A stretch of DNA of 64,000 bases, taken from positions 1 to 64,000 of the forward strand of contig CALQAH020000005.1 of NCBI GenBank assembly GCA_943328505.2, written 5' to 3'. Origin of the DNA: Rhizobium sp. Q54. GTDB taxonomy: Bacteria; Bacteroidota; Bacteroidia; Flavobacteriales; Flavobacteriaceae. The position numbers and the translations under genes are program-made. Below the pieces are notes generated by a model. The model searched no databases and was not told where the DNA came from. It saw only the letters and a list, made by a program, of their open reading frames with translations. This document shows, piece by piece, positions 5,027 through 63,407 of the stretch; positions within the stretch are counted from its first letter, which is position 1; every line of letters begins with the position of its first letter.

Positions 5027-6955
5027 ATGCAATTCAAACACCCAGAAATCCTTTATTTTCTTTTCTTACTGATTATCCCAATTCTGGTACATTTGTTTCA
5101 ATTACGACGTTTTAAAAAGGAATATTTTACCAATGTTCAATTCCTAAAAGAACTTTCCATACAAACCAGAAAAAGCTCAAAACTTAAAAAATGGTTGTTA
5201 CTTTGCACTCGATTATTACTTTTAACTTTCTTGATTTTAGCGTTTGCACAACCCTTTTTTACAGCAAAAGAAAGTAAAAAAGCAACTAATGAAATGTACA
5301 TCATTTTGGACAATTCATTCAGTATGCAAGCCAAAGGAAAAAAAGGCGAGTTACTTAAAAGAGCCGTTCAAGACTTGTTAGAACACACTCCTGAAACTCA
5401 AAATTTTTCATTGATAACCAATTCTGATAATTATTGGAATACCGATATTAAAACAATTCAAAAAGAGTTACAAAACTTAAAATACAGTGCCAATTCATTT
5501 CAATTAGATAACCTTTTAGCGAAAGTAAATGCACGAAAATCAGCCTTTAATAAAGATATTATTGTCATTACCGATGCTGTTGGTTTAGAAGAAAAGCAAC
5601 TCAAAAATTTCCATAAAGACGACAATGTATATTTCATCACTCCAAAAGCGGAGCAAAAAAATAACGTTTCCATCGATAGTGTTTACATTAACCAAACCAT
5701 GGATAATTTCTATGAAATTGGCGTAAAATTATCGGCGAATGGCGAAGATTTTAATGCAGTACCTATTGCATTGTACAACAACAATAAACTTACAGCCAAG
5801 ACATTAGTGAGTTTTGAGCAACAAAATAAAATCGTAAATTTCACAATACCAAAAGCTGATTTTCACGGTTATGTTTCCATCGTTGATAAAGGATTATCTT
5901 ATGACAACATCTATTACTTTAGTATTTCAAAACCTGAGAAAGTAAATGTAATAAGTATTGGAGCAAACGAAAAAAGTAATTTCCTTTCCCGAATTTATTC
6001 ACTTGAAGAATTCAATTTTAACAATTTTGAATTAACAAGTTTAGATTATAATCTACTCGAAAAACAAGATGCTATTGTTTTAAATGAAATTAAAGACATT
6101 CCGCAAGCATTACAAACTACTTTAAAAAGTTTTGTAGCAAAAGGCGGCAATTTAATTGTCATTCCATCTCTAGAAAGTAATGTTGCCAATGTGAATTCAT
6201 TCCTAAGCAATTATGGAACCATTCAATTGAAGACACTTGTAAACAAAGATAAAAAAGTAACCAAAATCAATTTTAATCATCCATTATTCAATACTGTTTT
6301 TGAGAAAAAAATTGATAATTTTCAATATCCAATCAATAAAAACTCGTTTATTTTAACTAGCAATTTGCCATCCATTTTAACGTATGATGATCAAAGTTCG
6401 TTTTTGACTTCAATACAAAATGGAATTTCATCCGTTTATGTTTTTGCTGCACCTATTAATAAAGAAAATAGTAATTTTCAGAACTCACCTTTAATTGTTC
6501 CTACGTTTTACAATATGGCGCAAAGTAGTCAAAGAACTGGTGTGAATGCTATAATTATTGGCGAAAACCAACCCTATATCGTGGATGCCTTAGTAACAAA
6601 AGACGAAATTGTAACCGTAAAAAACACTACCGAAAAATTCATTCCTGTTCAACAAATACTGAATACCAAAGTTAAAATGACTTTTAACGAAAACCCGGTT
6701 GAAGCTGGAAATTTCGGAATATTCAATTCAGATCGATTGGTTCAAAACATCAGTTTTAATTATAATAGAACCGAAAGTAATTTGACTTTAATCAATGAAA
6801 GTGTTCTTTCGGATTATACTATTAGTAACGATATTGAAACCGTTTTTAATACCATACAAACTGATAGAACCGATACGCAAATCTGGAAATGGTTTGTTAT
6901 CTTTACATTACTTTTTATAGCATTGGAATTACTCATTCAAAAATTTGTAAAATGA
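5027..6955 (+). CDS. BatA/vWA domain membrane protein
   Basis: This 642-aa protein has the N-terminal BatA domain (two membrane segments, about residues 8-25 and 56-76), then a von Willebrand A fold with a MIDAS-like DxSxS motif at residues 95-99 (DNSFS), and a C-terminal membrane helix near 620-637. Most of the chain would be periplasmic. Proteins of this type are common in Bacteroidota and often resemble Bat aerotolerance components, but the other bat genes are absent here. Its TGA stop overlaps the ATG of the next gene (ATGA), so the two are translationally coupled. Confidence 0.82.
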   Translation: MQFKHPEILYFLFLLIIPILVHLFQLRRFKKEYFTNVQFLKELSIQTRKSSKLKKWLLLCTRLLLLTFLILAFAQPFFTAKESKKATNEMYIILDNSFSMQAKGKKGELLKRAVQDLLEHTPETQNFSLITNSDNYWNTDIKTIQKELQNLKYSANSFQLDNLLAKVNARKSAFNKDIIVITDAVGLEEKQLKNFHKDDNVYFITPKAEQKNNVSIDSVYINQTMDNFYEIGVKLSANGEDFNAVPIALYNNNKLTAKTLVSFEQQNKIVNFTIPKADFHGYVSIVDKGLSYDNIYYFSISKPEKVNVISIGANEKSNFLSRIYSLEEFNFNNFELTSLDYNLLEKQDAIVLNEIKDIPQALQTTLKSFVAKGGNLIVIPSLESNVANVNSFLSNYGTIQLKTLVNKDKKVTKINFNHPLFNTVFEKKIDNFQYPINKNSFILTSNLPSILTYDDQSSFLTSIQNGISSVYVFAAPINKENSNFQNSPLIVPTFYNMAQSSQRTGVNAIIIGENQPYIVDALVTKDEIVTVKNTTEKFIPVQQILNTKVKMTFNENPVEAGNFGIFNSDRLVQNISFNYNRTESNLTLINESVLSDYTISNDIETVFNTIQTDRTDTQIWKWFVIFTLLFIALELLIQKFVK

Positions 6956-8205
6956 ACCTAATTATCCGAACTGCAAGAATTATTGACTCAAAAAGTCCTT
7001 TTCATAATCAAATTGTGGATGTAAAAATTACCAATGGAACTATTGAAAAAATTGGTAACCAACTTCAAAATTCTGATAACTATCAAGAAATAAAAATTGA
7101 CAACTTACACCTCTCACAAGGTTGGTTTGACACAAGTGTTTCTTTAGGAGAACCTGGATTTGAAGATCGTGAAACCATACAAAACGGTTTGGATGTTGCA
7201 GCCAAAAGTGGGTTTACAGGTATTGCATTACAACCCAACTCCTATCCTATTATTGACAATCAATCACAGGTACATTTTGTAAAACAAAAAGCGATTAAAT
7301 CAGCAACCGATTTATATCCCATTGGAGCTTTAACCAAAGGTAGTGAAGGCAAAGATATGGCGGAACTTTTTGATATGAAAAATGCTGGGGCAATAGCTTT
7401 TGGGGATTATAATAAAAATATTTCGAATGCAAATTTGATGAAAATTGGTCTTCAATATGTTCAAGATTTTGACGGCTTGGTGATTGCCTTTTGCCAAGAC
7501 GAAACCATAAAGGGAAGCGGTGTTGCCAATGAAGGAGTTGTTTCCACACGATTGGGATTGAAAGGAATTCCGAATTTAGCTGAAGAAATTATATTGGCGA
7601 GAAACTTATTTTTATTAGAATATACTGGTGGGAAATTGCATATTCCAACCCTTTCTACAGCAAAATCGGTGAGTTTAATTAAAGAAGCTAAGGCAAAAGG
7701 ATTACAAGTGACTTGTAGCGTTGCGGTGCATCATTTGGTTTTGACCGATGAAACATTAGAAGGATTTGACACGCGCTATAAAGTTACGCCACCATTACGA
7801 ACGGAAGCAGACAGAAAAGCTTTGTTAGCTGGAATTTTAGACAACACAATTGATTGTATCACTTCAGATCATAATCCGTTGGATGTTGAAAACAAAAAAA
7901 TGGAATTTGACTTGGCTAAAAATGGAACCATTGGTCTAGAAAGTGCTTTTGGCTCCTTACAAACTGTCTTACCTTTGGAAAAAATAATTGATAAATTAAC
8001 TTTTGGAAAAACCATTTTCGGATTAGAAAATCAGAATATTCAAGAAGGAAATTCAGCCAATATTACTCTGTTTTTAACCGAAGACAAATGGAATTTTAGC
8101 AAAGAAGCTATTCTTTCTAAATCAAAAAACTCTGCTTTTTTGGGTCATGAAATGAAAGGAAAAGCGGTTGGGATTTACAATAAAGGAAAATTAATTTTAG
8201 CATAA
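6952..8205 (+). CDS. Dihydroorotase-like protein lacking metal ligands
   Basis: This 417-aa protein has the full amidohydrolase fold of class I dihydroorotases (PyrC), the enzyme of pyrimidine synthesis. The signature expected to read HxH-L-R-E-P-G is here S62-V-S64-L-G-E-P-G, so both zinc histidines and the substrate-binding arginine are replaced. The later ligand in the usual H-x-x-H-V-S-T stretch is Thr233 (HIPTLST). Asp306 in SDHNP is kept. It is therefore probably catalytically inactive, comparable to the pseudo-dihydroorotases that scaffold aspartate transcarbamoylase in some bacteria. ATG 6952 overlaps the stop of the vWA gene. Automated annotation would probably call it dihydroorotase. 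Confidence 0.85.
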   Translation: MNLIIRTARIIDSKSPFHNQIVDVKITNGTIEKIGNQLQNSDNYQEIKIDNLHLSQGWFDTSVSLGEPGFEDRETIQNGLDVAAKSGFTGIALQPNSYPIIDNQSQVHFVKQKAIKSATDLYPIGALTKGSEGKDMAELFDMKNAGAIAFGDYNKNISNANLMKIGLQYVQDFDGLVIAFCQDETIKGSGVANEGVVSTRLGLKGIPNLAEEIILARNLFLLEYTGGKLHIPTLSTAKSVSLIKEAKAKGLQVTCSVAVHHLVLTDETLEGFDTRYKVTPPLRTEADRKALLAGILDNTIDCITSDHNPLDVENKKMEFDLAKNGTIGLESAFGSLQTVLPLEKIIDKLTFGKTIFGLENQNIQEGNSANITLFLTEDKWNFSKEAILSKSKNSAFLGHEMKGKAVGIYNKGKLILA

Positions 8206-18647: not shown

Positions 18648-18660
18648 ATACTTAGTATTT

Positions 18661-18729
18661 TAGCCCTGATGGCAGCGGCATCCCACGCTTTTTTTTGCGT
18701 GGATATAGCAAACAGCAGGAAATAGCTCC
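18661..18729. repeat. Imperfect hairpin element, Flavobacterium-type intergenic repeat
   Basis: The element starts TAGCCCTGATGGCAGCGG and ends CAGGAAATAGCTCC. Between lies a hairpin with arms CCACGC (18683-18688) and GCGTGG (18697-18702) around an eight-T loop. The ends can pair only weakly (CCTG with CAGG). From memory, similar sequences with the same ends but different hairpins recur between genes of many Flavobacterium genomes; I cannot check this here. Only one copy is in this window. It lies between the BrkB-family gene and the DUF2147 gene. Confidence 0.6.
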
Positions 18730-60993: not shown

Positions 60994-61719
60994 ATGAAAT
61001 CAATAGTATTACGAGAAATAAAATCCTTTTTTGGTTCGCCTGTTGGCTATTTAGTAATTGCCATTTTTCTTTTACTCAACGGATTGTTTCTTTGGGTTTT
61101 TGATGGAGAATTCAATATTTTAAAAAGTGGCTTCGCCGATTTGAGTCCTTTTTTCACCCTGTCACCATGGATTTTGATTTTCTTAATTCCTGCAGTTACT
61201 ATGCGTAGTTTTTCGGATGAAAAAAAACAAGGAACCATTGAATTATTATTTACCAAACCTTTATCGATTTGGCAAATTGTAAATGGTAAATTTTTAGGCG
61301 CATTTTTACTAATTGTAATTGCAATACTTCCTACTTTGGTTTATGTATATGTCCTTTCCAGTTTAGGTTTACCAGAAGGCAACATTGATATGGGAAGCAC
61401 TTTAGGTTCCTATTTTGGGTTGCTTTTTTTGGTTGCTGCCTATACAGCCATTGGAATATTCACTTCGACACTTTCCGAAAATCAAATTGTAGCCTTTTTG
61501 ATTGCTGTTTTTTTATGTTTTATTTTCTTTTATGGCTTTAAAGAATTAGCAACCTATGCATCGGTTTTTGAAGATGGAATTGAGCAATTTGGTGTTGAAT
61601 ATCATTTTAAAAGTATGAGTCGTGGTGTTATCGATACAAGAGATATTTTGTATTTTGTGAGCATTACTATTTTGTTTTTATCACTTACTGTTTTTAAATT
61701 AAAATCTCTGAAATCGTAA
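60994..61719 (+). CDS. gldF: Gliding motility ABC transporter permease GldF
   Basis: GldF is a permease subunit of the GldA-GldF-GldG ABC transporter, needed for gliding in some Flavobacterium species. The 241-aa protein has about six helices and the ABC-2 permease segment MRSFSDEKKQGTIELLFTKP near residues 69-88. Its stop overlaps the gldG start (TAATG). gldA, the ATPase, is not in the window, as in other Flavobacterium genomes where it is separate. Confidence 0.93.
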   Translation: MKSIVLREIKSFFGSPVGYLVIAIFLLLNGLFLWVFDGEFNILKSGFADLSPFFTLSPWILIFLIPAVTMRSFSDEKKQGTIELLFTKPLSIWQIVNGKFLGAFLLIVIAILPTLVYVYVLSSLGLPEGNIDMGSTLGSYFGLLFLVAAYTAIGIFTSTLSENQIVAFLIAVFLCFIFFYGFKELATYASVFEDGIEQFGVEYHFKSMSRGVIDTRDILYFVSITILFLSLTVFKLKSLKS

Positions 61720-63407
61720 TGAAAAAAAACACAAACAACTTCAAAAAAATCATGGTATTAATCCTAGTATTAATTACTGTGAACTTCGCTGGACACTATG
61801 CTTTCAAACGTTTTGATTTAACCGCAGACAATCGTTATACGCTTTCAGAAACTTCGTTACAAATTATTAGCGAGATCAAAGAACCACTTTATATTGATGT
61901 TTTCTTGGAAGGACAATTTCCGGGCGAATTCATAAAACTACAAACCGAAACCCAACAATTATTAGAAGAATTTAAAGCCGAGAATTCTAACATTATTTTT
62001 CAATTTGTTAATCCTATAGAAAACGAAGATGAACGCGAACAAATAATGCAATCTTTTGCTGAAAGAGGTTTATTGCCTATTAATGTTACCCTAAATGATA
62101 AAGGGCAACAAACCCAAGAAGTGGTTTTCCCATGGGCAATCGCAACCTACGGTGATAGAAGTGTAAAAGTGCCTTTGTTAAAAAATATGATGGGTGCATC
62201 AACTGCAGAAAAAGTGGTCAGTTCAGTACAGCATTTGGAATATGCTTTTGCCAATGCTTTCAATACTATTTCAAAAAATAAAGAAAAAAAAGTAGCCGTA
62301 ATCAAAGGTAATGGAGAATCACATGATATTTTAATAGCCGATTTTATTAAATCAGTTCGTGATAATTACAGAATAGGAACTTTTACATTAGATTCGGTTG
62401 CCAAAAACCCTAACGAAAGTCTGAAATATTTAAAAAAATATGACCTTGCCATTATTGCAAAACCCACAGAAGCCTTTACAGATGAAGAGAAACAAGTATT
62501 GGATCAGTTTATTATTAATGGTGGAAAAACACTTTGGTTGGTTGACCCCGTAAATATTGAAATGGATAGTTTGTACAATGAGTCGGGTTCCAATTTAGCA
62601 TTCCCGAGGGATTTGAATTTGAATGACCTGTTTTTCAAATATGGTATTAGAATGCGTCCCGATTTGGTGAAAGACATTATGGCAACACCCATTTCTTTAG
62701 CTTCTGGAGAACAAGGAAGCGCTACTCAATATACGCAATATCCATGGTTATTTTCTCCTATGATTTATCCATCAATGGGAACAAAACACCCAATTGTTAG
62801 TAATCTTGACGGTATTAAATTTGAATTCGCAAGTCCAATTGAAATTTTAAAAAACGATATAAAAAAAACAGTTTTATTACAATCATCACCCTATTCAAAA
62901 GCAGTTGGAACACCATTCCCAGTCAGTTTAAACATGGTTTCAGAACGTCCTGAACAGAAGGATTTTCAAAATACCGGAAATATCCCAGTGGCCGTTTTGC
63001 TCGAAGGTAAATTCCATTCAGTATATGAAAACAGAGTATTGCCTTTTAAAGACAAAACCTTTAATCCAATTGGAGAAGATAATAAAATGATTGTTATTTC
63101 GGATGGTAATGTCATCCAAAATCAATTAGATAAAAAGAATCAACCTTTGGAATTGGGTTATGACAAATGGACAAATAACCTTTATGCCAATAAAGAATTC
63201 TTAATGAATAGTGTCAATTATTTATTGGATGACAATGGACTTATTAACATAAGAAGTAAAGAAGTTGATTTACCGATTTTGAACAATGAAAAAGTCTATG
63301 CCAACTACACCTTTTCTCAAGTCATAACTGTCGGGGTTCCAATTGTAATTCTTTTACTATTTGGTGTTGTATTTACTTTCTTAAGAAAGCGCAAGTACAG
63401 CAAGTAA
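61719..63407 (+). CDS. gldG: Gliding motility ABC transporter substrate-binding subunit GldG
   Basis: This 562-aa protein has an N-terminal membrane helix (about residues 10-27), a large periplasmic part starting with RFDLTADNRYTLSE, and a C-terminal helix (about 533-555) followed by a basic tail. This layout matches GldG, the partner of GldF in the gliding-associated ABC transporter. A 94-base gap with a promoter for dnaN follows. Confidence 0.93.
   Translation: MKKNTNNFKKIMVLILVLITVNFAGHYAFKRFDLTADNRYTLSETSLQIISEIKEPLYIDVFLEGQFPGEFIKLQTETQQLLEEFKAENSNIIFQFVNPIENEDEREQIMQSFAERGLLPINVTLNDKGQQTQEVVFPWAIATYGDRSVKVPLLKNMMGASTAEKVVSSVQHLEYAFANAFNTISKNKEKKVAVIKGNGESHDILIADFIKSVRDNYRIGTFTLDSVAKNPNESLKYLKKYDLAIIAKPTEAFTDEEKQVLDQFIINGGKTLWLVDPVNIEMDSLYNESGSNLAFPRDLNLNDLFFKYGIRMRPDLVKDIMATPISLASGEQGSATQYTQYPWLFSPMIYPSMGTKHPIVSNLDGIKFEFASPIEILKNDIKKTVLLQSSPYSKAVGTPFPVSLNMVSERPEQKDFQNTGNIPVAVLLEGKFHSVYENRVLPFKDKTFNPIGEDNKMIVISDGNVIQNQLDKKNQPLELGYDKWTNNLYANKEFLMNSVNYLLDDNGLINIRSKEVDLPILNNEKVYANYTFSQVITVGVPIVILLLFGVVFTFLRKRKYSK

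Follow-up and report, generated by a model that had tools for sequence, protein, structure and literature searches.

We analysed a window of 64,000 nucleotides (positions 1 to 64,000, forward strand, of contig CALQAH020000005.1 in assembly GCA_943328505.2, named Rhizobium sp. Q54 and placed by GTDB in the Flavobacteriaceae) that encodes a protein with the fold of a type-I dihydroorotase (DHO) and without its metal-binding histidines. With a probability of roughly 0.7, we take this pseudo-dihydroorotase (pDHO) to serve aspartate transcarbamoylase (ATCase; PyrB) as a subunit without catalysis of its own, like its counterpart in the class A2 ATCases of Pseudomonas. We favor this reading because the metal site is lost, the second DHO of the genome belongs to a zinc-binding family (the 2gwn family), and the pDHOs fall into one group on a tree. 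It is further favored because the presence of pDHO is coupled to one ATCase lineage, with no PyrI overlap among the tested genomes, because G072, the sole genome with a fully intact type-I DHO, has no member of the 2gwn family, and because the type-I DHO relatives of other classes adjoin pyrB.

The history we propose would start from a type-I DHO encoded beside pyrB, probably a partner of ATCase as in Aquifex. Catalysis would have been handed over to a second DHO (PRK09236/2gwn family), the metal site would have been lost early in Bacteroidia, and pDHO would have continued as a scaffold, with three pDHO dimers joining two ATCase trimers and stabilising or regulating the enzyme. Lineages that acquired a PyrI-type ATCase would then have lost pDHO. 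The physical complex of pDHO and PyrB, its stoichiometry, the need of ATCase activity for it, its effect on ATCase, any regulation by nucleotides and the activity of the second DHO are putative. A passage in one study (PMC7053772) describes the ATCase chain of P. aeruginosa, which remains an inactive monomer until a DHO homologue, itself inactive, builds it into the dodecamer. The Bacteroidia pDHO would fit this mechanism, having the same fold, a lost catalytic site, no PyrI and mostly one ATCase lineage.

Catalytic residues of pDHO and the second DHO

The open reading frame of pDHO is uninterrupted, and its product matches solved type-I DHOs over almost its whole length in phmmer searches (3mpg, 4e-66; Aquifex 3d6n, 4.6e-65), the closest structures in sequence being 3mpg/4yiw, Aquifex 4bjh/3d6n and 3gri. 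AlphaFold gave a model with a mean predicted local distance difference test score (pLDDT) of 59.6 from an alignment of 15 rows and of 71.8 from one of 53 rows. The closest fold to the latter, moderate model in Foldseek is 3d6n_A, the DHO chain of the Aquifex ATCase complex. Residues 126-205 and 308-326, which include or flank part of the former active site, are below 50 pLDDT, and the model therefore gives no judgement on alternative ligands. The ligands of Aquifex DHO, as given in one section of PMC3880350, are His61, His63, Asp153 and Asp305, with His180 and His232 at a second site. Aligned with them, the features of pDHO are as follows:

6952..8205, + strand: pseudo-dihydroorotase (pDHO), 417 amino acids, type-I DHO fold without metal histidines (sequence and Foldseek)
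7135..7149, + strand: Ser62-Val63-Ser64-Leu65-Gly66 replacing His-x-His-x-Arg (alignment; Aquifex His61 to Ser62, His63 to Ser64, Arg65 to Gly66)
7405..7407, + strand: Asp152, equivalent to Aquifex Asp153, retained (alignment)
7489..7491, + strand: Phe180 replacing Aquifex His180 (alignment)
7648..7650, + strand: Thr233 replacing Aquifex His232 (alignment)
7867..7869, + strand: Asp306, equivalent to Aquifex Asp305, retained (alignment)

All four metal histidines are replaced, together with the arginine at the place of Aquifex Arg65, which we take to be a substrate-binding residue. Both metal sites are thus without histidines, and only the two aspartates remain. The first-pass annotation, made from the sequence alone, had called the replacements by Ser62, Ser64, Gly66 and Thr233; the alignment with Aquifex DHO bears these out and adds Phe180, which had been overlooked. 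Its view that the protein is inactive as a DHO is, on the strength of the four histidines and the arginine, very probably right. Ser62, Gly66 and Thr233 are invariant in 53 aligned Flavobacterium-type sequences (Ser64, at least 90%), so the replacements are no sequencing error. The protein scores 285.1 bits against TIGR00857 (pyrC_multi), above the curated cut-off of 279.05, and automatic annotation may therefore label it a dihydroorotase, probably wrongly.

The genome of the window (G000, 97% complete) has two TIGR00857 matches, pDHO and a second DHO; the search did not extend to type-II DHO (the E. coli PyrC type). The second match is located as follows:

G000, contig C4, 45084-46328: second DHO, 446 amino acids (profile TIGR00857)

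Its nearest solved structure is 2gwn (3e-157), from Porphyromonas gingivalis. Members of this family (PRK09236/2gwn) have Gln-x-His-x-Arg where the canonical type-I DHO has His-x-His-x-Arg, and the residues at ligand or substrate places (Gln, His, Arg, Lys, His, His and Asp) are invariant in all 31 sequences read (L001 1453-2790 on the minus strand, and L298-L327). The same Gln is present in 2gwn, which a table row in PMC12524618 lists with two zincs; we therefore judge the family, and with it the second DHO of G000, to be metal-competent. Across Bacteroidia, a search at E 1e-70 detected the 2gwn-type family (NF006688) in 130 of the 139 genomes; G072 is among the nine that do not have it. The first-pass annotation had held that its proposal would fail if pDHO were the only DHO of the genome; a second one, with Gln-x-His, is present.

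For the survey of the class Bacteroidia, we searched 139 genomes, which are designated by codes (G, f and g numbers) and among which related genomes recur, with a profile built from 15 Flavobacterium-type sequences. The profile matched 123 genomes, five of them solely through the other DHO family, and 118 carry a type-I-like homologue. We fetched 116 of these loci with flanks, leaving out G000 (the window itself) and G294 (split in two pieces). All six ligands are kept in a single homologue, L290 of G072; His-x-His is kept in six of the 116 and both second-site histidines in eight, and 53 are devoid of histidine at all four positions. His61 has most often given way to Gln or Arg, and His63 to Asn; each of these two columns holds 12 or more residue types. 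One homologue inside the pDHO clade, L181 (G284), keeps His-x-His, Arg65, Asp153 and Asp305, its second-site histidines being gone, and is possibly still active, or a reversal. In comparison, the 30 best-scoring homologues from other classes among the 150 matches listed in a phylum-wide draw, a set biased to canonical DHOs, are all intact, and 28 of these genes have pyrB immediately upstream in the same orientation. The first-pass annotation had proposed such a comparison of ligand columns across Bacteroidota. On a quick tree built with the ligand columns blanked, four sets (the window's pDHO, the remaining pDHOs of Bacteroidia, the intact DHOs, and G072) are separated by the minimum number of changes. 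The pDHOs form one group, and the loss of the metal site appears to be old, early in Bacteroidia.

The intact type-I DHO of G072 (L290) lies directly downstream of pyrB, and this genome has no 2gwn-family match. We set aside the idea that it is a remnant: the same-genus genomes drawn (G166 and G519) have neither ATCase nor type-I DHO, and the branch of the G072 PyrB is long (1.75). Transfer of the pyrB-pyrC gene pair is likelier.

Distribution of pDHO, ATCase and PyrI

The genome of the window has a single ATCase of 307 amino acids, encoded on contig C52 just downstream of a pyrR-like gene (named by eye), and no PyrI was found in it (TIGR00240, E 1e-6). Among 396 Bacteroidia genomes, 338 have a pDHO homologue and 385 an ATCase. 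Eight of the 11 genomes without ATCase are also without a pDHO homologue (Fisher 1.6e-5, kinship ignored); five of these eight were listed as such, and the other three (G166, G519 and G590) are absent from the list of carriers. Several absences of pDHO look like contig breaks, with the vWA gene upstream of it ending at the contig end in G438, G446 and G487.

PyrI, the non-catalytic chain of class B ATCase, belongs to a family unrelated to DHO. In the 219 Bacteroidia genomes tested (139 + 80), it occurs in none of 164 pDHO carriers and in 21 of 55 non-carriers from 8 family codes (Fisher 8e-15, kinship ignored); that is, it was found only in genomes without pDHO. The first-pass annotation had taken the odd vWA partner of pDHO as a sign of some role apart from that of keeping ATCase assembled. 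The distribution speaks against this, since no tested carrier has PyrI, pDHO is missing from eight of the 11 genomes without ATCase, six of these eight keeping the vWA gene, and pDHO descends from a type-I DHO lineage whose other-class members adjoin pyrB. A further role of pDHO through the vWA protein may exist in addition.

We read PyrB from 144 of 146 loci and took bit scores against the window genome's own PyrB, for which the lowest values of each group are complete. The 89 carrier loci score at least 426 bits, compared with 276-390 for 28 loci of other classes, 273 for G072, 194-391 for ten non-carrier loci without PyrI, 122-152 for the PyrI loci (11 genomes) and 120 for G323. A tree of PyrB, drawn with 45 of the 89 carrier rows and unsure in its placement of long branches, puts the carriers and the own PyrB, on short branches, in one group of 52 rows (support 87) that neighbours the other-class ATCases. 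Outside this group fall non-carrier PyrBs of f85 (branch 2.29), of f2 (3.34) and of the PyrI type, the last together with G323 and set off by a branch of 2.97. Among the 22 non-carrier ATCases that we read, two look native and 20 are foreign or very long-branched. Among solved structures, the own PyrB has its second-best match, at 200 bits, in the ATCase of the Aquifex complex; chains of the class C ATCase of B. subtilis come close behind, at 188 bits. Eleven columns of PyrB are specific to the lineages with a DHO partner. At position 240 (own numbering), Arg occurs in 100% of the carrier ATCases and in 96% of those from other classes, and Tyr in the two f67 ATCases that are without pDHO, making Arg240 a candidate contact residue only.

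Several observations weigh against the scaffold role. In the own genome, pDHO (contig C5) is not adjacent to pyrB (contig C52), and pyrB lies within the fetched flanks in just two of the 116 class loci, one of them the intact G072. Three genomes without ATCase (G368, G409 and G552) carry pDHO; they are 91-95% complete and their same-genus relatives have pyrB. Three other carriers (G265, G266 and G319) have no 2gwn-family DHO at E 1e-70. The 52-row group of carrier PyrBs is not clean, as it includes six non-carriers, two of f67 (genus g145) and four of f78 (branch 2.23). Genus g145 (six genomes) has ATCase and neither pDHO nor PyrI, and its two ATCases read group with those of carriers. The PyrI ATCases all lie on one side of a branch, and kinship inflates the tests; the switch to PyrI may be a single event and the phyletic evidence may rest on few events. 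Seventeen of the 21 PyrI genomes are without the vWA gene too, and across 71 genomes the distances of pDHO track those of the vWA protein (partial r 0.48) more than those of PyrB (0.25).

Comparison with known systems places these points in context. The class A2 ATCase of Pseudomonas, a dodecamer of PyrB and an inactive DHO homologue (PyrC' or pDHO), also occurs with a separate DHO in the genome and without PyrI, both of which hold here. In Pseudomonas the pDHO gene adjoins pyrB, whereas the Bacteroidia gene is coupled to a vWA gene and extends through most of a class, and the complex of its product is putative. Adjacency to pyrB would be a feature of the Pseudomonas case and not of the complex; the other-class relatives do have it. 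The class A1 ATCase of Aquifex aeolicus, in which an active DHO joins ATCase (3d6n), is the closest relative by Foldseek and near-closest by sequence, and the other-class relatives resemble it in their intact ligands and pyrB-pyrC order, while the catalytic histidines and the arginine are lost in Bacteroidia. The pseudo-DHO domain of fungal CAD-like proteins (5nnl), as described in a section of PMC12524618, is likewise a metal-free DHO fold in a protein with ATCase, but unlike pDHO it is part of a fused multidomain eukaryotic protein. In the class B ATCase of E. coli (PyrB and PyrI), non-catalytic dimers hold two catalytic trimers, according to a passage in PMC7053772; in the 219 Bacteroidia genomes tested, PyrI is confined to those without pDHO.

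The vWA gene and alternative explanations

The gene upstream of pDHO is coupled to it as follows:

5027..6955, + strand: membrane protein with BatA N-terminal and vWA domains, 642 amino acids (Pfam BatA, 1.4e-20; VWA_2, 26.6 bits, just below the cut-off of 27; NCBIfam two_anch)
6952..6955, + strand: ATGA overlap of the vWA stop and the pDHO start (sequence)

The ATGA coupling described by the first-pass annotation is present, and an identical four-base overlap occurs in 38 of 80 close relatives. The pair, whose conservation it had suggested checking, extends across the class: a gene for a vWA protein of about 640-700 amino acids precedes pDHO in the same orientation in 93 of 116 loci, the two stops being no more than 526 bases apart. 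With single window proteins as queries, a search that counted presence in the fetched stretch and not position recovered the vWA protein from 79 of the 80 Flavobacterium loci and from 93 of the 116 across the class. The three other neighbours tested are frequent in Flavobacterium (downstream membrane protein, 80/80; esterase, 79/80; upstream helicase, 68/80) and nearly absent in the class (2/116, 3/116 and 3/116, respectively). Because the vWA gene persists while the three other tested neighbours vanish, the pairing is exceptional. In the 139 genomes, 113 have both genes, 12 neither, nine vWA only and five pDHO only (Fisher 2e-8, kinship ignored). Where the two part, the vWA gene is retained in six of the eight genomes without ATCase and pDHO (G262, G278, G310, G336, G166 and G519), in all six g145 genomes, which have no pDHO, and in four of the 21 PyrI genomes (G359, G381, G437 and G466). 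Loss of pDHO in these cases goes with the pyrimidine genes more than with vWA. BatA-domain proteins are known from the Bat aerotolerance operon, within a MoxR/BatB-E gene cluster; inspection of the window's open reading frames by eye found no obvious Bat partner, no profile search for such partners having been made. The vWA-pDHO pair is real but unexplained, class-wide, and no mention of a Bacteroidota pDHO or of a DHO-vWA pair appeared among the open-licence papers listed by literature searches. One doubtful extension of the scaffold role is that the ATCase-pDHO complex is also tied to the vWA membrane protein, physically or by coupled synthesis, so that pyrimidine synthesis would be anchored to or regulated at the envelope. 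This would explain why the vWA-pDHO pair alone survives while the other tested neighbours scatter.

The same pairing invites an explanation without ATCase, in which pDHO has been recruited to work with the vWA/BatA protein, perhaps as an adaptor or sensor in the cytosol, and its past with ATCase has ceased to matter. The conserved order, the ATGA overlap, the co-occurrence and the closer tracking of vWA distances all speak for it. However, pDHO is gone and vWA kept in the three sets of genomes named above, pDHO survives without vWA in five of 118 carriers, and a topology drawn by eye puts the vWA protein mostly outside the cytoplasm and pDHO inside; we consider recruitment unlikely.

Continued catalysis, as a DHO or another cyclic amidohydrolase with altered ligands or no metal, is more improbable still. 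Metal binding or activity can persist in proteins without the canonical zinc residues, a caveat on the inactivity of pDHO. Aquifex DHO stays active after loss of both second-site histidines, as reported in part of PMC3880350, and a Pseudomonas PyrC paralogue said to be without zinc residues is reported active in a statement of PMC2770081 citing Brichta 2004. The two retained aspartates, the two zincs listed for 2gwn (PMC12524618, table row) despite one missing His of its His-x-His motif, and the first site, Arg and Asp305 of L181 point the same way. Against this, the window's protein has lost both His-x-His histidines, the substrate arginine and both second-site histidines, the ligand columns vary freely across the class, and nearly half of the homologues have lost the histidines of all four positions.

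A decaying, functionless gene held in place by the vWA overlap seems very improbable indeed. pDHO does diverge fast, with median distances of 1.98 compared with 0.57 for PyrB, against 1.34 and 0.71 for intact DHO and PyrB in other classes (different genome sets), which is consistent with lost catalytic constraint. Yet among the 118 class genomes only G289 and G356 have a stop within the match (G294 being split in two), and 38 columns are conserved at 90% or more in pDHO as well as in intact DHO. Some conserved sites are specific to pDHO, such as Glu138 at 97%. The ratio of nonsynonymous to synonymous substitution rates (dN/dS) is 0.05-0.13 against seven relatives, where dS is at least 1.1 in six and 0.81 in L004 (ratio 0.075), and the gene is carried by most of the 396 genomes. 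The scaffold role is the reading we prefer.

Implications and other features of the window

If pDHO serves ATCase as proposed, most Bacteroidia would make pyrimidines with a dead-enzyme scaffold, and automatic pipelines may name many such proteins active dihydroorotases. The phylum would then offer a natural series, from an intact DHO beside ATCase, through loss of catalysis where the second DHO family is present, to replacement by PyrBI in some families, which opens the role of a pseudoenzyme partner of ATCase to tests in Flavobacterium. As a lead, the pairing with vWA across the class may connect a metabolic complex to an uncharacterised envelope protein. Elsewhere in the window, a Flavo-1 RNA (RF01705) lies at 18658-18726 (55.2 bits; cut-off 42), and two genes at 60994-63407 resemble what we take to be the gliding-motility ABC components GldF and GldG.

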